DNA from: Alphaproteobacteria bacterium
GTDB taxonomy: Bacteria; Pseudomonadota; Alphaproteobacteria; M2410
Assembly: GCA_030614785.1 (NCBI GenBank)
Contig: JAUWTJ010000043.1
Span: 1 to 35,368, forward strand
Length of the DNA: 35,368 nucleotides
Direction: 5' to 3'
The notes beneath the pieces were generated by a model. The model saw only the letters and a program-made list of their open reading frames with translations. It was not told the origin of the DNA and did no database searches. Position numbers and translations under genes: made by a program. Of the stretch, positions 81-12,226 are shown one piece after another. How positions within the stretch are numbered: the stretch's first letter is position 1; the number at the start of each line of letters is the position of its first letter.

Positions 81-1838
81 ATGACCGAGACACAGCTCAG
101 CGGCGCGGAGATCGTCATCAAGGCTCTTAAGGATCAGGGCGTTGAGGTGATGTTCGGCTATCCCGGTGGCGCAGTGCTGCCGATCTATGATGCCTTGTTC
201 CAGAATAGCGGCATCCGCCACATCCTTGTCCGTCATGAGCAAGGTGCGCTGCATGCTGCTGAGGGCTACGCGCGCTCAACCGGCAAGCCCGGCGTCGTGT
301 TGGTGACATCTGGACCGGGCGCCACCAATGCGGTCACCGGTCTGGCGGATGCAATGCTCGATTCCATTCCTATCGTCTGTCTGACGGGGCAGGTCGCCTC
401 GCATCTGATTGGCGGCGATGCCTTCCAGGAAGCCGATACTGTCGGCATCACCCGCGCCTGCACCAAGCACAACTGGCTTGTAAAGGACGCAAACGATCTG
501 GCGCGCACAATCCATGAAGCCTTCTACATTGCCACCAGCGGTCGTCCGGGTCCTGTTGTTGTCGATATCCCGAAAGATGTTCAGTTCGCACCAGGCGATT
601 ATTGCGGACCGGACAGGGTCCAGCACAAGACCTATCGGCCCAGGGTCAAAGGCGATATCAATTCGATTACCCGGCTGGTCGAGATGATCGGCGAGGCGAA
701 GCGTCCGCTGTTTTATACCGGCGGCGGGGTTATCAATTCAGGTCCGGCTGCCAGTCAGCTCTTGCGCGAACTGGTTCGCGGGACCGGCGCTCCGATCACA
801 TCAACGCTGATGGGGCTGGGCGCTTTTCCTGCGTCCGACAAACAGTGGCTCGGCATGCTCGGCATGCATGGGACGGCAGAAGCCAACTACGCGATGCACG
901 ATTGCGATCTTATGATCTGTGTTGGTGCGCGCTTTGATGACCGGGTGACCGGTGTCATCGAGAAATTCTCGCCGGGCTCCAGAAAAGTCCACATCGATAT
1001 CGATCCGTCGTCCATCAACAAGAACGTCCTGGTCGATTTGCCGATCATTGGTGACGTCGCCCATGTTCTTGAAGATGTTCTGCGGATCTGGAAAGCACAG
1101 GGACGTCCAACCAACAGTGCGGCGATTGCCGACTGGTGGAAGACCATTGAGGGTTGGCAGGCACGCGATAGCCTGAAATTCGAGAACTCAGACACAATCA
1201 TCAAGCCGCAATACGCCATTCAGCGTCTGCAGGAGCTCACCAAAGACCGCGATGTCTACTTTACGACAGAGGTTGGTCAGCATCAGATGTGGGCAGCGCA
1301 GCATTTGCGCATTGAAGAACCCAATCGCTGGATGACCTCCGGCGGCCTTGGTACCATGGGATACGGGCTGCCCGCTGCGGTGGGCGTTCAGATTGCCCAT
1401 CCCAATTCTCTGGTCATCGACGTGGCTGGCGAAGCGTCAATTCAGATGATGACCCAGGAGCTTTCCACCGCTGTTCAGTACGGCGCGCCCGTTAAAGTCT
1501 TTATTCTGAACAATACCTATATGGGCATGGTCAGACAGTGGCAGGAATTACTGCACGGAAACCGCCATTCGGAGTCCGAAAGTCTTGCCATGCCGGATTT
1601 TGTAAAGCTGGCGGAAGCCTACGGTGCGAGCGGCATTCAGGTCAAAGACCCGGCGGATGTGGATGGCGCCATTGAGGAGATGATCCGCAGGGATGGTCCG
1701 GTTGTTGTCGATTGCCTGGTGGACAAATATGAGAACTGCTTCCCGATGATCCCGTCCGGCGCCGCACACAATGAAATGATTTTCGGCAAGGCCGGTCTTG
1801 ATGCCGGTGTTTCCGAAGAGGGAAAAATTCTTGTTTGA
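81..1838 (+). CDS. ilvB: Acetolactate synthase large (catalytic) subunit
   Basis: Thiamine-diphosphate enzyme that condenses pyruvate with pyruvate or 2-oxobutyrate, the first common step of valine, leucine and isoleucine synthesis, in the cytoplasm with IlvN. The 585 residues match the family length. An N-terminal ThDP pyrimidine-binding domain occupies about 1-170, with the catalytic glutamate E53 in RHEQGA. A central domain spans about 195-330, and a C-terminal ThDP diphosphate-binding domain about 385-540. The usual GDxS metal-binding motif reads GEAS at 450-453, a conservative Asp-to-Glu change I recall in other alphaproteobacterial enzymes. The ATG is preceded by AAAGGTAAAGG at a suitable distance. 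ilvN starts 71 bases downstream and ilvC follows, so this is probably one operon. IlvB/IlvI/IlvG naming cannot be settled from sequence alone. Confidence 0.95.
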   Translation: MTETQLSGAEIVIKALKDQGVEVMFGYPGGAVLPIYDALFQNSGIRHILVRHEQGALHAAEGYARSTGKPGVVLVTSGPGATNAVTGLADAMLDSIPIVCLTGQVASHLIGGDAFQEADTVGITRACTKHNWLVKDANDLARTIHEAFYIATSGRPGPVVVDIPKDVQFAPGDYCGPDRVQHKTYRPRVKGDINSITRLVEMIGEAKRPLFYTGGGVINSGPAASQLLRELVRGTGAPITSTLMGLGAFPASDKQWLGMLGMHGTAEANYAMHDCDLMICVGARFDDRVTGVIEKFSPGSRKVHIDIDPSSINKNVLVDLPIIGDVAHVLEDVLRIWKAQGRPTNSAAIADWWKTIEGWQARDSLKFENSDTIIKPQYAIQRLQELTKDRDVYFTTEVGQHQMWAAQHLRIEEPNRWMTSGGLGTMGYGLPAAVGVQIAHPNSLVIDVAGEASIQMMTQELSTAVQYGAPVKVFILNNTYMGMVRQWQELLHGNRHSESESLAMPDFVKLAEAYGASGIQVKDPADVDGAIEEMIRRDGPVVVDCLVDKYENCFPMIPSGAAHNEMIFGKAGLDAGVSEEGKILV

Positions 1839-1909
1839 TCCTGGTCGGGCAGGACCCGCCCGTATGATACCGAAACCGAAAGTAATTTTACTTGAAAGGG
1901 TAAAGGTCT

Positions 1910-2428
1910 ATGTCGCCGCTTCGCGATGAAACTCAGGAACGTCATTGTATCGCCGTGCTCGTGGACAACGAGGCGGGCGTTCTGGCGCGCGTGATTGGCT
2001 TGTTCTCCGGGCGTGGCTATAATATCGAAAGTCTCACAGTGGCAGAAGTGGACCACTCTGGTCATTCCTCCCGGATCACCGTTGTGACGACCGGGACCCC
2101 GATGATAATCGCCCAGATCAAGGCGCAGCTGGAACGGCTCGTGCCAGTCCATCGGGTCGTTGATCTCACTGTAGATCACGAAAGCATGGAGCGCGAAATG
2201 GCCATGATTAAAGTGGTCGGCACCGGAGAAAAGCGGGTCGAGAGCATGCGGCTGTCGGAGGTGTTTCGTGCCCATGTCGTGGACTCGACCCAAACATCAT
2301 TCGTCTTTGAGTTGACCGGTGCGCCGGGGAAAATTGACGCTTTTATCAACCTCATGCGCCCACTCGGGCTCGTGGATGTTTCAAGAACCGGAGTCGTCGC
2401 TATAGCGCGCGGCCCGGATGCGATGTAA
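1910..2428 (+). CDS. ilvN: Acetolactate synthase small (regulatory) subunit
   Basis: Regulatory partner of IlvB that carries the valine feedback site and raises activity of the catalytic subunit. Its 172 residues are typical of the longer bacterial type (IlvH/IlvN). An N-terminal ACT domain runs from about residue 11 to 85 (HCIAVLVDNEAGVLARVIGLF, then GYNIESLTV), followed by the C-terminal ALS_ss_C-type domain to about 170. The start region (GGTAAAGGTCTATG) is almost the same as that of ilvB, supporting this ATG and suggesting matched translation. It lies between ilvB and ilvC in the same orientation. Confidence 0.95.
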   Translation: MSPLRDETQERHCIAVLVDNEAGVLARVIGLFSGRGYNIESLTVAEVDHSGHSSRITVVTTGTPMIIAQIKAQLERLVPVHRVVDLTVDHESMEREMAMIKVVGTGEKRVESMRLSEVFRAHVVDSTQTSFVFELTGAPGKIDAFINLMRPLGLVDVSRTGVVAIARGPDAM

Positions 2429-2484
2429 GACCTCATCAGGAATTTAAATCCCGGGCCTCATCTGGCAGCGCTCGGACAAAGTAA

Positions 2485-3519
<1,035 letters not shown>

Positions 3520-3542
3520 TTTTGACGTGAAGATGAAGATCT

Positions 3543-3578
3543 GAATGGGGTCTGTTCAGCAATGAGCGGACCCCGTTC
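3543..3578. terminator. Hairpin between convergent ilvC and lipoprotein gene
   Basis: GAATGGGGTCTG (3543-3554) pairs with CGGACCCCGTTC (3567-3578) over 12 positions, two of them G-T wobbles, around a 12-base loop. It lies just after ilvC and overlaps the stop of the convergent gene, so it could end transcription from both sides. The T-runs are weak, so the terminator call is inferred from position and stem strength. Confidence 0.5.
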
Positions 3579-4239
3579 ATTTGGTTCTGACAAGATCCGC
3601 AATTTCAAAGCCGAACAAGTCTTTGACCTCAAGAGCGTGGCCACCAACAAATTTCGTCAGGGAACCGCTTGATGAGGTCAGATAGAGCAGCTCGCCTTGT
3701 TCATTTTCCTCATCATATACGACGACAGTGCCGCCCTTGAGAATACCGGACTCCAGCGCCGTCTTGACGATCTCGCTCTCCTCATCGATCAAATATATCT
3801 CGAGATGTTCGAGCCCTTCCTCTTCACGGAACTCGTAATAGCCCAAATAGTATCCGTTCATGCGTTTGTCGCGATTTCGGAACTTCCGGCGGGCCTCGGT
3901 GTGGGAAATATCGTTTACCGCTGCATAGTCTTCAAGAAACTCTGCCGGAAAAAACTGCGTCACACTCAGGAAGCGCTTCTCTTTGATCTGACTTGGGAGA
4001 ACCGTGTAATATAGGCTTTTCGGTTCGCCTGCAGTATCCTCATCAAGCGTAGAGAATTTTAGTTTGAGAGTGTTGCGCCCCGACCGGGTGAACTTCATCT
4101 CGACATCGTCATTTTGCCAGACGCCAACCAGTTGCTGATCGAACACGCGATTACCAAGGGGATGCCTGGAGGACAGCGGGAAACATGCTGTGAGAAAGAG
4201 GGCCAGGAAAACGACTGCAGATTGTCTGGTCTTTGGCAT
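3577..4239 (-). CDS. Putative lipoprotein of unknown function
   Basis: I do not recognise the family. The start at 4239 is chosen because GGGGGA lies about 7 bases upstream and because it places a classic lipoprotein signal at the N-terminus: a positively charged start, a hydrophobic stretch at about 7-17, then the lipobox LTAC with Cys19 as the predicted lipidation site. An upstream in-frame ATG at 4269 would add ten charged residues and spoil the signal. The mature part (about 200 residues) is rich in charged residues and beta-type segments with no catalytic motif I can name. The gene is convergent with ilvC and probably monocistronic. Confidence 0.75.
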   Translation of the reverse strand: MPKTRQSAVVFLALFLTACFPLSSRHPLGNRVFDQQLVGVWQNDDVEMKFTRSGRNTLKLKFSTLDEDTAGEPKSLYYTVLPSQIKEKRFLSVTQFFPAEFLEDYAAVNDISHTEARRKFRNRDKRMNGYYLGYYEFREEEGLEHLEIYLIDEESEIVKTALESGILKGGTVVVYDEENEQGELLYLTSSSGSLTKFVGGHALEVKDLFGFEIADLVRTK

Positions 4240-4506
4240 CGTCGGTTCCCCCGGTTTTCGCTTCTCCATCGCGAGGCAAAGCTAACATTGAGCGATGGGT
4301 GTGGCAACTGAGCCTCGAAGGAGCAGAGACAGGCCTCAAACCTTGATCTATTTTTCACGATTGTAATTCTGTGCTTGCCAAACCAGGGTAAGTTCATCTT
4401 AATTGGCGCCAGCGAACTTTTGACGTGTTCCAACGTATTCATTGTTCGTTAACCAGGCGTGTACCAGTCTTGGTTCGGAAGCGAAGTCGTTGTTTTGGAA
4501 GCAGAA

Positions 4507-4629
4507 ATGTCAGTATTAGTGACACAGTTTGAAGGACTTGACCGGAGCACACTCGTGCTGGCGGGCGGTCCTGTGCGTCCGACAACTCACCTTCTCCTGG
4601 CGGAACTTCTTCTCCTTATGCGCCCCTGA
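4507..4629 (+). CDS. leuL: Probable leucine attenuation leader peptide upstream of leuA
   Basis: A 40-codon ORF (ATG 4507, TGA 4627-4629) with GGAAG about six bases before the start. It ends in HLLLAELLLLMRP: 11 of 40 residues are leucine and 7 of the 9 codons at positions 29-37 are Leu (CTT, CTC, CTG, CTT, CTT, CTC, CTT). A leucine-rich mini-ORF 96 bases before leuA is the hallmark of ribosome-mediated attenuation of leucine genes. I do not see a strong terminator with a U-run after it. The Leu-codon region contains TCCTGG and TCCTTA, which are complementary to the purine-rich region just before leuA, so control may act on leuA translation. Initiation at an internal GTG (4555 or 4573) is possible. 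Confidence 0.7.
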   Translation: MSVLVTQFEGLDRSTLVLAGGPVRPTTHLLLAELLLLMRP

Positions 4630-4725
4630 TCGCATCGAGGTTTTCGGTCATAAAGACCTGAGCCAGCGTTTAGGGGAGAAGCTGAACAATCCCGACCTCT
4701 CATCGCATATATAAGGACCAGGAAG
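4630..4725 (+). promoter_or_regulatory. leuA leader with purine-rich RBS complementary to leuL codons
   Basis: The stretch between leuL and leuA ends with TAAGGA (4712-4717) directly followed by CCAGGA (4718-4723) and the leuA ATG at 4726. These match TCCTTA (4613-4618) and TCCTGG (4595-4600) in the Leu-codon run in the correct nested antiparallel order. A smaller stem GGTC/GACC around ATAAA is also present. Sequestration of the RBS when the leader ribosome has left would lower leuA expression. That mechanism is inferred; only the complementarity is seen. Confidence 0.45.
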
Positions 4726-6330
4726 ATGAGCACAGACTCAAAAAATGAATCCGTAAAAGAAACTGACACCAAACGAGAGCGCGTCTATATTTTTGATACG
4801 ACGCTGCGTGACGGCGAACAATCCCCCGGCGCGTCGATGAACCTGCCGGAAAAGCTCCGCATTGCAGAGATGCTTGAGACCCTCGGCGTGGACATCATTG
4901 AGGCGGGCTTTCCAATTGCCTCCAACGGTGACTTTGAAGCTGTCCGGGAAATAGCCAAACTCGTTCGCAAGCCTGTCATTTGTGGGCTCGCGCGCGCCGG
5001 AACAAAGGACATCCTGCGAGCTGCAGAAGCGTTGAAGGATGCCGAACGCAAACGGATCCATACCTTCATTTCCACAAGTCCGGTTCATATGAAGCACAAG
5101 CTTCAAATGACATCCGAGCAGGTCATGGAGGCCGTCATCGGATCGGTAACGCAAGCCCGCAATCTGGTTGATGATGTGGAGTGGTCGCCGGAGGATGCAA
5201 CACGCACGGATCATGATTTTCTCTGTGCCACAGTCGAAGCCGCTATCAAGTGCGGCGCCACCACGATCAACATCCCCGATACTGTCGGCTATTGTATTCC
5301 AACCGAATATGCTGACCTCATCAAAATGCTGATCAACCGGGTTCCCAATATAGATCAGGCAATCCTGTCGGTTCACTGTCACAACGATCTGGGTCTCGGG
5401 GTAGCCAATTCCCTGGCTGGCATCGCGGCTGGAGCACGTCAGGTCGAATGTACGATCAACGGGCTTGGCGAGCGAGCCGGCAATGCGGCCATGGAAGAAG
5501 TCGTCATGGCCATCAAGACCCGCAATGACATGATGCCTTATGACGTTGGTATTGAGACGACTGCGATTGCCAAGGCATCCAAACTGGTTTCGGGCATCAC
5601 AGGTTTTGCCGTCCAGTATAACAAGGCGATCGTTGGCAAGAATGCCTTTGCTCACGAGTCCGGCATTCATCAGGATGGCATGTTGAAGAACAACGAGACC
5701 TACGAAATCATGACGCCGGAAAGTGTTGGCGTCAGTGAGACTACACTCGTGCTTGGCAAATTGAGCGGCCGCCATGCCTTCCGGGCAAAACTGGAAGAGA
5801 TGGGCTATCAATTGGGCGCCAACGCTCTTGATGATGCCTTTAAACGGTTCAAGGATCTCGCCGACAAGAAACGTGAAGTCTTCGATGCGGACATCGTTGC
5901 ATTGGTGGATGATGAAATCATCAGCGAAAACGAGCGAATTCGTCTCGTGTCGCTTCGGGTTATCTCGGGCACCGAAGGCCCGCAGGAAGCCACTCTGACG
6001 CTGGAAATTGATGGTGAGGAAAAGACCACAACCTCGAGCGGCGACGGGCCGGTTGACGCGACCTTCAATGCCATCAAGGCACTCTTCCCGACCAAGGCCC
6101 GACTTGAGCTCTACCAGGTTCACGCCGTGACCAAGGGAACCGATGCGCAAGCCGAGGTGAGTGTTCGAATGGAAGAGGATGGCAAAATCGTCCTCGGGCG
6201 GGGCGCTGAAACCGATACGCTGGTGGCCTCTGCCAGGGCTTATGTCAATGCGCTCAACCATCTCCTGGTGAAGCGAGAGCGGACTGTGCCGCCGGCAATG
6301 GATGTGCTTGAAGGTGATATCGGTGCCTGA
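4726..6330 (+). CDS. leuA: 2-isopropylmalate synthase
   Basis: Condenses acetyl-CoA with 2-oxoisovalerate, the committed and leucine-inhibited step of leucine synthesis. The 534 residues match the LeuA type 1 enzyme. The catalytic TIM barrel spans about 20-290, starting with FDTTLRDGEQSPGASM (R28, D29) and including the metal-site VHCHND (H217, H219). A linker domain and a C-terminal LeuA allosteric dimer domain (about 390-515) follow, as expected for feedback-regulated enzymes. The ATG is preceded by AAGGACCAGGAAG. The leucine-rich leader ORF just upstream suggests leucine control of expression in addition to feedback inhibition. It is monocistronic here; mreB begins 269 bases later behind its own upstream region. 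Confidence 0.95.
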   Translation: MSTDSKNESVKETDTKRERVYIFDTTLRDGEQSPGASMNLPEKLRIAEMLETLGVDIIEAGFPIASNGDFEAVREIAKLVRKPVICGLARAGTKDILRAAEALKDAERKRIHTFISTSPVHMKHKLQMTSEQVMEAVIGSVTQARNLVDDVEWSPEDATRTDHDFLCATVEAAIKCGATTINIPDTVGYCIPTEYADLIKMLINRVPNIDQAILSVHCHNDLGLGVANSLAGIAAGARQVECTINGLGERAGNAAMEEVVMAIKTRNDMMPYDVGIETTAIAKASKLVSGITGFAVQYNKAIVGKNAFAHESGIHQDGMLKNNETYEIMTPESVGVSETTLVLGKLSGRHAFRAKLEEMGYQLGANALDDAFKRFKDLADKKREVFDADIVALVDDEIISENERIRLVSLRVISGTEGPQEATLTLEIDGEEKTTTSSGDGPVDATFNAIKALFPTKARLELYQVHAVTKGTDAQAEVSVRMEEDGKIVLGRGAETDTLVASARAYVNALNHLLVKRERTVPPAMDVLEGDIGA

Positions 6331-6352
6331 AGGGCCCCCGGTCTCCTTTTTT
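6321..6352 (+). terminator. Possible leuA terminator
   Basis: An imperfect GC-rich hairpin overlaps the leuA stop (CGGTGCC, short loop, GGCCCCCG) and is followed after a few bases by a run of six T (6347-6352). The stem is imperfect, so this is moderate evidence for an intrinsic terminator. Confidence 0.4.
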
Positions 6353-6370
6353 GACAAATACTTGTGATCT

Positions 6371-6409
6371 GGAGTGATTCACATACCAAATCCTGGGGTG
6401 AATCACTCC
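6371..6409. promoter_or_regulatory. Perfect 12-base inverted repeat upstream of mreB
   Basis: GGAGTGATTCAC (6371-6382) and GTGAATCACTCC (6398-6409) are perfect inverted copies separated by 15 bases. Each arm contains a GANTC site (GATTC, GAATC), the CcrM methylation target in many alphaproteobacteria. No T-run follows, so an operator or methylation-sensitive site is more likely than a terminator. Immediately after, CTCCATAAT occurs twice in tandem (6406-6424). The role is unknown. Confidence 0.5.
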
Positions 6410-6510
6410 ATAATGCTCCATAATACCGCATACATTTACTGAGTCGGTTCCCAGGGCGGGCCGTGGAGGCGCGGGTTTGCGCCAGGTTTTCATGGACTTT
6501 GTCAGCACGG

Positions 6511-6534
6511 CTTTAACCTTATTTTACTTTAACC
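6511..6534 (+). promoter_or_regulatory. Two CTTTAACC direct repeats upstream of mreB
   Basis: CTTTAACC occurs at 6511-6518 and 6527-6534, 16 bases apart start to start, about 70-90 bases before the mreB ATG. TTAACC resembles a half-site of the alphaproteobacterial cell-cycle regulator CtrA, but the spacing differs from the usual TTAA-N7-TTAA. A regulator binding site is plausible but unproven. Confidence 0.3.
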
Positions 6535-6596
6535 ATGAGAATATCGGCCTCAGCTTTTCTTTTTCACTTCAATAAGCCCGCAAAGGGCGGAGATAA

Positions 6597-7643
<1,047 letters not shown>

Positions 7644-7709
7644 TTGGCGGATACAGTCAAGTGTTGCCCGCTTTGATTAACGTGCAGAAATACACGCAGG
7701 TGAGGCGAC

Positions 7710-8612
7710 ATGTTTGACCGCAGGTTTGATAGTGAACAATCACAGGACTCAGTCTTCGTCGAAGGCAGGAGATTGCCCTTTGTCATTTTGCTATCTCTGG
7801 CCCTGGTCTTCATGATGCTGGATCGTGCCGAAGCTGATGTGCTGGATGACGCACGCGAGGCCATTACCGATTTCACATCTCCGATTTACGAGGCGGTGTC
7901 GCCGCCGATCAAGGCGATACGCGCCTGGTTCGGAAGAGTGCCCAGGCTTTTCTCGACGCTGGAAGAAAACGAACGCCTGCACCGCGAAAATGCGGAGCTG
8001 CGTGCCTGGAAGGATGCCGCGCTGCTGCTGGAAAAAGAAAATGCTCGATACGAGGCTCTACTCAACGTCGCGGTCGATCCCGAAATCGGGTATGTAACTG
8101 GCCGTGTTGTCACCGAGGCATCGGGCCCCTTCATTCGCACACTGGTCGTCAATCTGGGTAAGCGCAATGGTGTTTTTGATGGTTCCGCCGTTATTGACGA
8201 GGATGGTCTGGTTGGCCGGATTTTGGGATCAGGCCACAATGCCTCGCGGGTATTGCTTCTCAACGATCTGAACTCACACATACCCGTCGTTGTAGAGCCT
8301 GGAAATTATCGTGCGGTCCTGAGTGGAACAAACAAGGCCTATCCGACCATTGAATTTCTATCCAGAGATGCCCAGGTGCAAGTCGGCGACAGGGTCGTCA
8401 CATCAGGACATGGCGGACTTCTCCCCCCTCATCTCCCGGTAGGTCTCGTGTCCAGCATTGACGGGAAACACATTCGTGTACATCCGTTTTCAAATGAGAC
8501 CAAAGTTGAACGGGTTCGGGTATTGCAGTATGACTTTCCAAATCGCGTCGTTGAAACGAAAGGGAAGAAATCAGATCCAACGGCACCCGACGCCGATGGC
8601 ACTAACGGGTGA
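7710..8612 (+). CDS. mreC: Rod shape-determining protein MreC
   Basis: Bitopic inner-membrane protein of the elongation machinery that activates PBP2 in the periplasm. The 300 residues show a short cytoplasmic N-terminus, one transmembrane segment at about 22-38 (LPFVILLSLALVFMML), a periplasmic coiled-coil at about 78-120 with many E/K/R/L residues, and the two beta-barrel domains from about 125 to 275. A polar tail follows. GAGGCGAC precedes the ATG. It is in the mre operon, and mreD begins at its stop codon. Confidence 0.93.
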   Translation: MFDRRFDSEQSQDSVFVEGRRLPFVILLSLALVFMMLDRAEADVLDDAREAITDFTSPIYEAVSPPIKAIRAWFGRVPRLFSTLEENERLHRENAELRAWKDAALLLEKENARYEALLNVAVDPEIGYVTGRVVTEASGPFIRTLVVNLGKRNGVFDGSAVIDEDGLVGRILGSGHNASRVLLLNDLNSHIPVVVEPGNYRAVLSGTNKAYPTIEFLSRDAQVQVGDRVVTSGHGGLLPPHLPVGLVSSIDGKHIRVHPFSNETKVERVRVLQYDFPNRVVETKGKKSDPTAPDADGTNG

Positions 8613-8617
8613 CCACA

Positions 8618-9136
8618 ATGTTTACTCACTCCAGAGAAAGTAGTGGCAGCCGTCTGTGGTCACTTTTTCCGTTCCTGAGCGCCGTCTTTTGTATTTTGCT
8701 AACAATGGTTCCTCTCGGACTCTCGACTGGATACCTCGCGCCTCCATCTTTTTCCCTCGTTGCGATTTATATCTGGATTCTCGCCCGCCCGGACTTGATG
8801 CCACCGACAGCGGTTTTTCTTCTCGGCATCCTGCAAGACCTCTTCTGGGGTGGACCGGTGGGGCTATGGGGTGCGGTTTTTTTGATCGTCTGGGCTTTTA
8901 CGCTTTCGCAGCGGCAGTTTCTTGCAGGCAGAGGGTTTGGGTTGACCTGGGCAACGTTCGGCGTCGTTGCCATCGGGTCCAGTGTTCTGGCGTGGATCAT
9001 AGCTTCTGTTTTTTACGGTACGCCTATGCCTGTCATCCCAATTCTTTCGCTGACTATTTTGAGTTTCGCCGTCTATCCTGTCTTTGCAAGGGTCGCCCCT
9101 TTCTTCATGCGGCAAATGGGAGAGGCAGGGTCCTGA
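8618..9136 (+). CDS. mreD: Rod shape-determining protein MreD
   Basis: Small polytopic inner-membrane partner of MreC. About 172 residues with roughly five hydrophobic segments (around 15-35, 45-65, 75-95, 105-128 and 132-150), matching the family in length and hydrophobicity. The sequence is poorly conserved as usual, so the call leans on its place between mreC and mrdA. The ATG at 8618 lies just after the mreC stop and has a weak GGGTGA upstream. A GTG at 8609 overlapping the mreC stop is an alternative start. Either arrangement implies translational coupling. Confidence 0.88.
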   Translation: MFTHSRESSGSRLWSLFPFLSAVFCILLTMVPLGLSTGYLAPPSFSLVAIYIWILARPDLMPPTAVFLLGILQDLFWGGPVGLWGAVFLIVWAFTLSQRQFLAGRGFGLTWATFGVVAIGSSVLAWIIASVFYGTPMPVIPILSLTILSFAVYPVFARVAPFFMRQMGEAGS

Positions 9137-9137
9137 C

Positions 9138-11039
9138 ATGAAGTTTGATATACGTGACAGTGCTCGTTACGAGCAATTTAGCCGACGAACAGCGATTATG
9201 GGTTTCGGCACAGCGAGCATTTTCGCGGGCCTTGCCTCACGTATGTATTTTTTGCAGGTCATCGAAGGTGAGCAATATCGCCAGATGGCCGATGATAATC
9301 GCGTCAATCGGCGGATGGTTGCCCCTTTGCGGGGACGTATTTTCGACCGATTTGGTGTTGAGCTTGCATCGAACACCCAGAATCTCCAGGTGATGCTGAT
9401 CGCCGAAGACACCAATGATATTAACGAAACTCTGGAAGATATTGCGGCGGTGGTGCCCCTGTCGGCATCAAGGCGGCAACGCATTGCGCGGGAGATAAAG
9501 CGGAAACGCAAATTCGTCCCGGTTATGATTGCCGAAAATCTGACGTGGGAGCAGTTTGCCCGAATTAATGTTCGAGCACCTGATCTACCAGGTATTGTCG
9601 CGAATATCGGTGACGTCCGGCACTATCCTTTCGAGGGGCGCCTGGCTCACGTCCTTGGCTATGTTGCGAGGGTTTCCGAAAGGGATCTGCAGGAAAATGA
9701 CGACCCGCTCCTTCAGCTACCCGGTTTCAGAATAGGCAAGAGCGGCCTGGAAAAGTCACTTGATCTGGAATTGCGTGGCAGCACCGGGACGAGCCATGTC
9801 GAAGTCAATGCCTATGGCCGTGTCATTCGCGAGCTGGATCGCAAGGAGGGGGATGCAGGCCGCGACCTGGTTCTGACCCTCGATATGGGGCTTCAGAACT
9901 TTATCTATGACCGACTTGAAGGTAAAAGCGCTGCCGTTGTTGTCATGGACGTCAAGAATGGAGATCTTCTTGGTCTCGCGGCAACACCGGCGTTTGATCC
10001 CAATGATTTCACAAGGGGACTTTCGCAAGCCAAATGGGACAAGTTGCGGACAGATGATATGGATCCGCTGGTTAACAAGACAATCGCCGGCCAGTTTGCA
10101 CCTGGCTCTACTTTCAAGATCATATCGGCCCTTGCTGGTCTGGAGTCAGGTCAGATTGATCCCGACCATACGGTCTATTGCGGCGGCAAGATGCGCCTCG
10201 GGAACCGCGAGTTTCATTGCTGGAAACGTCATGGACACGGGGCAATGAACCTGCGTAATGCCATTAAGAATTCCTGCAATGTCTATTTTTTCGAAATGGC
10301 GAAACGTCTGGGTATTTCTGACTATGCCGAGATGGGCAAACGGTTTGGCATTGGCGAATTGCATGACATTGGCATTCCCGGTGCCAGAGAAGGACTGATG
10401 CCTACGGGAAATTGGAAACAAGCCTTCCGTGATGAAGCGTGGGTCAAGGGGGATACTCTCAACACAAGTATTGGCCAAGGTTTTCTGCTGGTCACTCCGC
10501 TCCATCAAGCTGTGATGACCGCGCGGCTCGCGAGCGGTGGTTTTGCAGTCAAGCCGCGCCTTATCAAAAGCCTTGGCGAGATGGCGAGCGAGCTGGAGGC
10601 GCCGGAGAGCATGGGCCTCACTAAAAAGTGGGTCGATCTCGTGCGGGAAGGGATGATCGCTGTCGTCAACGAACCTGGCGGTACAGCGTTTGGCAAGAAA
10701 CTGAGGGGCAAGGGGCTCTCGATGGCTGGCAAAACGGGCACAGTTCAGGTGCGGCGGATCACCAGGGAAGAGCGCGCCGCCGGAGTTACAAAGAACGAAG
10801 ATCTTCCCTGGAGGAGAAGGGATCACGGTTGGTTCGTTGGCTTCGGTCCGACAGAAGCACCACGCTACGCAATCTCTGTCCTCGTTGAACACGGAGGCGG
10901 TGGGTCGGCTGCCGCTGCACCCATCGGGCGCGACGTTATGCGCGAGGTGCTGCTTCGCGATCCCTCAAGCCGCCCGGCCTACTCCCCATCGCTCGAAGCG
11001 TCTTTGGCCAGTGGCCCTCGTTCAGGGAGGGAGGCATGA
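9138..11039 (+). CDS. mrdA: Penicillin-binding protein 2 (elongation-specific transpeptidase)
   Basis: Class B PBP that cross-links peptidoglycan during lateral growth together with the glycosyltransferase RodA. It has about 633 residues. A cytoplasmic tail and a single transmembrane anchor (about 18-36) precede the PBP dimerisation domain (about 60-240) and the transpeptidase domain (about 265-605). Catalytic motifs are complete: S324-x-x-K327 in PGSTFKI, S379-C-N381, and K532-T-G534. The ATG at 9138 is one base after the mreD stop and has GGGAGAGGCAGGG upstream. The longer in-frame ORF reaching 9084 would overlap mreD and is not needed. The stop overlaps the rodA start (ATGA). Confidence 0.96.
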   Translation: MKFDIRDSARYEQFSRRTAIMGFGTASIFAGLASRMYFLQVIEGEQYRQMADDNRVNRRMVAPLRGRIFDRFGVELASNTQNLQVMLIAEDTNDINETLEDIAAVVPLSASRRQRIAREIKRKRKFVPVMIAENLTWEQFARINVRAPDLPGIVANIGDVRHYPFEGRLAHVLGYVARVSERDLQENDDPLLQLPGFRIGKSGLEKSLDLELRGSTGTSHVEVNAYGRVIRELDRKEGDAGRDLVLTLDMGLQNFIYDRLEGKSAAVVVMDVKNGDLLGLAATPAFDPNDFTRGLSQAKWDKLRTDDMDPLVNKTIAGQFAPGSTFKIISALAGLESGQIDPDHTVYCGGKMRLGNREFHCWKRHGHGAMNLRNAIKNSCNVYFFEMAKRLGISDYAEMGKRFGIGELHDIGIPGAREGLMPTGNWKQAFRDEAWVKGDTLNTSIGQGFLLVTPLHQAVMTARLASGGFAVKPRLIKSLGEMASELEAPESMGLTKKWVDLVREGMIAVVNEPGGTAFGKKLRGKGLSMAGKTGTVQVRRITREERAAGVTKNEDLPWRRRDHGWFVGFGPTEAPRYAISVLVEHGGGGSAAAAPIGRDVMREVLLRDPSSRPAYSPSLEASLASGPRSGREA

Positions 11040-12226
11040 GTTTTGTCTATGGACAGACCGGCAGGGAAGTGCCGTTCCTGCAAAAACTTCGAGAGATCAA
11101 TTGGCTTTTGATCCTCACAGTGACCGCAATCTCCCTCATCGGAATTGCCATGTTGTATTCCACATCAACAACGCCGGTGGGACCCGCCGGAGAGCCGGCC
11201 ACCCGGGGGAGTTTTGACCCGTGGGCTTCTCGCCAACTAATACGATTTGGCTTTGGACTTGTTGTTCTGCTGGCGATCGGTCTCGTTGATATTCGTTTGT
11301 GGATGAAGCTTGCCTATCCAGCCTATGGCGTGGCCCTCATTCTTCTTCTGGCGGTCGAGTTCTATGGTGTCACGGGGATGGGCGCGCAGCGCTGGGTGGA
11401 GCTTCCTGTTGTCGGGATCACGCTTCAGCCCTCTGAAATTATGAAGATTGCAATGGTTCTCGCCCTTGCGCGGTATATTCACGGATTGGGCGACGGCGAC
11501 ATTTCGCACCTCAAAAGTCTTGCTCCGGCGGTTGTTATTATCATTTTGCCGGCCGTGTTGGTCTTGCGGCAGCCGGACCTGGGGACCGCGCTTCTTCTGC
11601 TCGCAGGCGGTTTCATCATCCTTTTTCTTGCTGGTCTGTCATGGCGTATTCTGGGCGGGGTCGGGGTCCTGGGGGTTGTCGGAGCTATCATCGGTTGGCA
11701 GTTCCTGCAGGATTATCAAAAACAACGGGTTCTGACCTTTCTCGATCCGGAAAGCGATCCGCTCGGTACCGGTTACCACATTCTCCAAGCCAAGATTGCT
11801 ATGGGGTCGGGCGGTGTTTTCGGCAAGGGTTATCTGCAAGGTACACAAAGCCAATTGAATTTCTTACCGGAAAAACATACCGACTTTATCTTTACAATGC
11901 TGAGTGAGGAACTGGGCTTGATGGGCGGGCTCTTCCTGCTTGTGCTCTACCTTATGATACTGGCCCGCGGCACGTCGATTGCGCTGTCCTCGCGGAACCA
12001 TTTCGGACGTCTCGTCGCAATGGGCGTTATGGCGACCTTCCTGCTGTATATTGTCATTAACACCGCCATGGTCATGGGACTTGTTCCTGTGGTCGGTGTT
12101 CCTCTGCCGCTTGTCTCCTATGGCGGAACAGCCATGATGACGATCCTCTTTGGTCTCGGGCTTGTCATGAGTGTCCACATCCACCGCGATATTGAAATTC
12201 CTGTTACGTCGGCAGGGTTCTGGTAG
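11036..12226 (+). CDS. rodA: Rod shape-determining protein RodA (SEDS peptidoglycan glycosyltransferase)
   Basis: Polytopic membrane glycosyltransferase of the SEDS family that polymerises lipid II for side-wall growth, paired with PBP2. The 396 residues carry about ten transmembrane segments. Family motifs are visible: RWVELP with LQPSEIMKIA, RQPDLGTALL, the loop LNFLPEKHTDFIFTMLSEELG, and the C-terminal PLPLVSYGGTAMM. The ATG overlaps the mrdA stop by four bases, showing translational coupling. It is the last gene of the mre/mrd operon, and a 9-base-pair hairpin begins 52 bases after it. Confidence 0.96.
   Translation: MSFVYGQTGREVPFLQKLREINWLLILTVTAISLIGIAMLYSTSTTPVGPAGEPATRGSFDPWASRQLIRFGFGLVVLLAIGLVDIRLWMKLAYPAYGVALILLLAVEFYGVTGMGAQRWVELPVVGITLQPSEIMKIAMVLALARYIHGLGDGDISHLKSLAPAVVIIILPAVLVLRQPDLGTALLLLAGGFIILFLAGLSWRILGGVGVLGVVGAIIGWQFLQDYQKQRVLTFLDPESDPLGTGYHILQAKIAMGSGGVFGKGYLQGTQSQLNFLPEKHTDFIFTMLSEELGLMGGLFLLVLYLMILARGTSIALSSRNHFGRLVAMGVMATFLLYIVINTAMVMGLVPVVGVPLPLVSYGGTAMMTILFGLGLVMSVHIHRDIEIPVTSAGFW

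Follow-up and report, generated by a model that had tools for sequence, protein, structure and literature searches.

A leucine-codon leader with two nested stems ahead of leuA in Alphaproteobacteria, a probable translational attenuator

The window analysed here, the whole stretch of 35,368 nucleotides of an alphaproteobacterial contig (JAUWTJ010000043.1), carries a short leucine-rich ORF upstream of leuA, which raises the question of whether this ORF controls leuA and, if so, at which level. In Proteobacteria, control of amino-acid biosynthesis is usually described as transcriptional attenuation. A preliminary description of the locus proposed another form, in which Leu codons of the leader pair with the leuA ribosome site and thereby govern translation. 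After following up this proposal in relatives, we consider it probable (about 0.77), judging from comparative sequence analysis, that the leuA leader is a leucine-responsive, ribosome-mediated translational attenuator. The features on which the argument turns all lie on the forward strand of the window:

4507 to 4629, + strand: Leu-rich leader ORF of 40 codons (ATG 4507, TGA 4627-4629), recognised from its sequence and from frame-specific Leu conservation.
4591 to 4617, + strand: putative regulatory Leu codons, CTT CTC CTG (4591-4599) and CTT CTT CTC CTT (4606-4617), recognised from sequence and frame specificity.
4606 to 4611, + strand: outer extension of stem B, with predicted partner 4720-4725, seen in the minimum-energy fold only.
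4613 to 4622, + strand: 5' arm of stem B, TCCTTATGCG, comprising the last Leu codons (window probabilities, own-versus-swapped test).
4623 to 4633, + strand: 5' arm of stem A, CCCCTGATCGC, comprising the last sense codons and the stop codon (covariation, window pair probability).
4666 to 4676, + strand: 3' arm of stem A, GCGTTTAGGGG (same covariation and window pair probability as the 5' arm).
4704 to 4717, + strand: 3' arm of stem B, CGCATATATAAGGA, which holds the leuA Shine-Dalgarno sequence TAAGGA at 4712-4717 (swap test, window probabilities).
4726 to 6330, + strand: leuA, 2-isopropylmalate synthase (NCBIfam NF002087, 867.7 bits; TIGR00973, 737.4 bits).

The Leu-rich ORF of the preliminary description is present ahead of leuA at 4507-4629. 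It is preceded by an SD-like GGAAG at 4497-4501 and encodes a peptide of 40 amino acids with the C-terminal end HLLLAELLLLMRP. The motifs from which the pairing had been proposed also lie exactly where they were placed (TCCTGG 4595-4600, TCCTTA 4613-4618, TAAGGA 4712-4717 and CCAGGA 4718-4723). For comparison, 59 genomes of the group and the genome collection were mined for leuA relatives, which belong mostly to Rhodobiaceae, Parvibaculum, 'Phaeomarinobacter', the PS1 clade, Rhodospirillales and other alphaproteobacteria. Most of these relatives have a short Leu-rich ORF that terminates 60-200 nt upstream of leuA, and the leader terminus is uniform across them, reading L-(L or R)-L-x-(R,C,S,G)-P or L-stop. 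The sequences of 89 thinned loci have in common a leader ORF rich in codons for the presumed regulating amino acid, as translational attenuators do. Specifically, codon -4 is Leu in 99% of these loci, codon -6 is Leu in 84%, with all four CTN codons occurring there, and codon -5 is Leu in 49%, the remainder being mostly Arg CGA. Leu at codons of about -5 to -9 is frame-specific and nearly absent from the two other frames. In-frame Leu with synonymous CTN variation is the pattern expected of a translated peptide, and we infer from it that the leader is translated. At 41 of the 89 loci, for example L008, L065 and L160, the Arg codon at -5, mostly CGA, stands between two conserved Leu codons (L-R-L).

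The most conserved part of the element is a hairpin over the leader stop codon (stem A), which the preliminary description had overlooked. The leader's final codons and stop (GCCCCTGAGCG) are matched by a complementary strand (CGCTCAGGGG) lying 30-60 nt further downstream, and the main pairs have probabilities of about 0.95-1.0 in the window's own ensemble. Where leaders end in TAG, the partner strand reads CTTAGGGG or CCTAGGGG, and CCTCTAG is matched by CTAGAGG. An alignment of 51 sequences showed both-sided changes in 7 of 11 pairs, with 92.7% of cells paired, an absolute percentage that is favoured because the loci were picked partly by this pairing. Double-sided changes numbered 51 cells versus 17.3 +/- 3.8 in shuffles, and were likewise fewer when the partner strand was slid. 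Locus choice alone does not account for this compensatory pattern. The loop between the two arms is conserved in neither length nor sequence.

At a few loci, namely L105 and L106 (Caulobacteraceae) and L146, the leader stop lies a few codons past the hairpin arm, which is otherwise kept. Retention of the hairpin in L105 and L146 despite the downstream shift of the stop codon indicates that selection acts on the RNA. We also considered nascent-peptide arrest by the conserved terminal Pro. However, L105 and L146 keep the CCC..GGG hairpin though their stop lies further on, which makes the RNA stem the better explanation of the Pro codon. On inspection of the window, AGGGGAGAAG (starting at about 4672) also looked like a good partner for the Leu codons CTTCTCCTT; since relatives retain only AGGGGA after the stem, we discarded this pairing and kept stem A.

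A hairpin in this position could instead act on transcription: at plentiful leucine, stem A or Rho would end transcription before leuA, and stalled ribosomes would prevent this. Amino-acid operons usually rely on transcriptional attenuation, and Rho-dependent ends would be invisible to a terminator scan. An alphaproteobacterial example is known in the ilv operon leader (PMC4117421). However, scanning 4260-4800 revealed no terminator-like site, including no U-run terminator between 4630 and 4725. The window therefore lacks the intrinsic U-run terminator that stands between leader and gene in attenuators of the trp/leu type, and its absence, already remarked upon from the sequence, is borne out. 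A U-run does follow stem A in a few relatives, strikingly in L142 (GGGGTTTTTTTT), but TTTT occurs within 8 nt after stem A at just 6 of 89 loci, and this rarity makes the transcriptional version less likely. Moreover, stem B reaches the leuA ribosome site with its 3' arm, and this arm has co-evolved with the Leu codons (see below); a terminator model needs neither. On this evidence we regard transcriptional control of leuA as unlikely. The L142 hairpin ahead of leuA (G147:C1:1413534-1413612) is an extended stem A that runs straight into eight T and so has the exact form of an intrinsic terminator, which sets it apart from nearly all other loci; from its sequence, the element may have turned into a terminator or transcriptional attenuator in that lineage.

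The RNA element might also bind a regulatory protein or an effector itself, the leader ORF being incidental. A protein was favoured for the actinobacterial LEU element, in which Leu-codon mutations had no effect in Streptomyces (Seliverstov et al. 2005, PMC1262725). For the present element such binding is most improbable: the reading frame keeps Leu while its codons change synonymously, and the stem A loop, being unconserved in length and sequence, offers no obvious ligand pocket.

The window alone was a poor guide to whether the Leu codons and the ribosome site are complementary by anything but accident, as pyrimidine-rich Leu codons would fit any purine-rich ribosome site even if the leader were functionless. 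The inner pairing of UCCUUAUGCG (4613-4622) with CGCAUAUAUAAGGA (4704-4717) had probabilities of about 0.54-0.92 in the ensemble. Shuffling the 5' arm gave z -1.9, weakly significant and barely beyond chance, and the whole-leader fold energy was unremarkable against shuffles (z -0.49). Since these statistics were insufficient, relatives were compared, and it is from them that significance stems. We employed a swap test, in which the pairing of each locus's own Leu-codon arm with its own leuA start region is set against pairing with other species' regions within G+C bins. Across 52 thinned loci, own arms gave -18.1 kcal/mol versus -15.4 +/- 0.43 kcal/mol for swapped arms (z -6.1). A further 37 thinned loci, independent in that they had no part in building the stem-A model and were found only through it, and that the model excludes the ribosome site, gave z -6.2, and 0 of 5000 permutations reached the observed mean; all 89 thinned loci together gave z -10.2. 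As controls, an upstream leader segment and the first 48 nt of leuA were null (z 0.06 to 1.05). Given also the covariation of stem A and the recurrence of the element immediately ahead of leuA in genome after genome, the chance alternative raised in the preliminary description is rejected and, as far as sequence comparison allows, refuted.

By the swap test and the window probabilities alike, codons of the leader pair with the ribosome site of the gene that they would regulate, as in translational attenuators. Pairing of the partner strand was most frequent at positions -11 to -12 relative to the start codon, on the Shine-Dalgarno site. Cases of compensatory type include CGACUUAGGUG with CACCUAAGUUG in L065, CUUCGACUUAGGUG with CACCUGAGUCGAAG in L068, ACUUACUC with GAGUAAGU in L160 and GGUCCUUCGA with UUCGAAGGACC in L188. 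Stem B is poor or imperfect in some close relatives; in L002 and L003 it reaches about -11 kcal/mol, no better than swapped arms. Two nested pairings had been proposed for the window. The inner one, TCCTTA with TAAGGA, held and extends to the stem B arms listed above. The outer one, TCCTGG with CCAGGA, falls outside the minimum-energy fold, in which CTTCTT (4606-4611) occupies 4720-4725 in its place. The leader ORF and the pairing of Leu codons with the ribosome site, whose conservation had been named as a check, are both kept in relatives.

Translational attenuation in response to leucine is thus supported, at the level of sequence, by the conserved Leu leader, the covarying stem A, the co-evolved stem B and the lack of a U-run terminator; the earlier proposal was essentially right, apart from the outer pairing and the missing stop-codon hairpin. 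The recurrence of the folded arrangement across many alphaproteobacteria suggests that it probably switches leuA on only when leucine is short. Ribosome stalling, the direction of the response and control of translation rather than transcription are what we infer for its action. With ample Leu-tRNA, ribosomes would complete the leader and depart. Stem A, formed by the last codons and stop with the AGGGG strand, would then close and bring the Leu codons beside the leuA start, where they would pair with the Shine-Dalgarno region as stem B and block initiation. As the two stems are nested and compatible, the RNA of a finished leader would keep the ribosome site closed. Under shortage of Leu-tRNA, a ribosome would stall on the last Leu codons and mask the 5' arm of each stem, which would free the ribosome site for translation of leuA.

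Fold computation was used to simulate such a stall. With a ribosome masking the last Leu codon, the average cost of opening positions -13..-5 fell from 5.64 to 3.57 kcal/mol, and in the window from 5.89 to 1.71 kcal/mol. Simulated stalling gained more than 1 kcal/mol at 52% of loci, i.e. about half, and a ribosome placed 17 codons upstream produced no significant drop in opening cost (5.25; P 0.09). An opening of this kind on a stall, here simulated, is a requirement of translational attenuation. A ribosome at the stop codon likewise opened the site in the window (1.73), so repression would need ribosome release.

The nearest description that we found is that of the LEU element of actinobacterial leuA, which comprises a Leu-codon leader, a base stem of Leu codons with the Shine-Dalgarno box, and an inner pseudoknot or alternative hairpin (PMC1262725). 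Judged against that description, the present element has the same base stem between the Leu-codon run and the leuA Shine-Dalgarno box, and shares the leader with its Leu-codon run before leuA and the lack of a terminator. The interiors appear to differ: that of the LEU element is described as a pseudoknot or alternative hairpin, and in the present alignment and covariation analysis we saw a single, simple covarying hairpin over the stop codon. One element is actinobacterial and the other alphaproteobacterial, and they are set side by side by description, not by sequence; by this analogy, both would work on the same plan. The proposed mechanism also resembles translational attenuation by leader peptides in erm genes (ermC; summarised in PMC10219788), where a ribosome stalled on the leader ORF frees the sequestered Shine-Dalgarno site of the next gene. 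There, however, the signal is an antibiotic with nascent-chain arrest, whereas here it would be scarcity of charged Leu-tRNA. Transcriptional attenuators, whether of the E. coli trp/leu type or the alphaproteobacterial ilv leader, have in common with the leuA leader the end-product codons in the leader peptide and a stalled ribosome that alters RNA folding. In contrast to these attenuators, the leuA leader showed no antiterminator/terminator pair with a U-run, and the 3' arm of its outer stem is the ribosome site.

Among leuA loci with 200 nt or more upstream, 80 of 102 carry the element by a strict sequence criterion; the other 22, some of them close relatives, are without it in this form. 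Six of the close relatives without it (L005, L035, L036, L038, L042 and L060; 72-73% leuA identity) have other inverted repeats upstream, such as CACTTCCTATCG..CTTAGGAAGTG ahead of leuA in L005, and leuA control may differ in them. A covariance model built on the leader end and stem A gave a single match in the window's own genome and, under strict filters, matches in 138 of 378 good-quality alphaproteobacterial genomes. The gene directly downstream was leuA at all of the best 30 matched loci, and also in most of the weak matches examined. Some weaker matches precede a non-orthologous leuA of the PRK03739/leuA_yeast-type isopropylmalate synthase subfamily (L203 and L205, with L141 and L146 by similarity), and the same leader and hairpin ahead of this type point to a regulator common to two leuA subfamilies. 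In the phylum sample there was one match beyond Alphaproteobacteria, in G448. It sits in an open frame resembling an AsmA-type protein with no leuA nearby, and was therefore set aside as a chance match.

Searches of the window leader against Rfam (4227 models, E up to 1) returned no match, and at the gathering threshold only tRNAs were matched in the window and ten relatives. In the literature searched we met with no account of a leuA leader from Alphaproteobacteria, although Vitreschak 2004 and Lopatovskaya 2010 might mention one. On balance we lean towards regarding the element as a class-wide, undescribed leucine-sensing translational attenuator of Alphaproteobacteria, in which two nested stems, with the stop-codon hairpin setting the Leu codons on the leuA ribosome site, serve two isopropylmalate synthase subfamilies and parallel the actinobacterial LEU element. 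If this is true, a widespread regulatory RNA absent from Rfam lies ahead of leuA in much of the Alphaproteobacteria and marks an unannotated leader gene in many genomes. It would also be an uncomplicated setting in which to study the opening of a start site by a ribosome that has stalled. Taken with the LEU element, it suggests that distant phyla evolved, or retained, leucine sensing through Leu codons that pair with the ribosome site of leuA.

Within the window, branched-chain synthesis genes adjoin a cell-shape cluster: the gene order across 81-12226 is ilvI (acetolactate synthase), ilvC, a small probable lipoprotein on the minus strand, the leader with leuA, mreB, mreC and the penicillin-binding protein gene mrdA.
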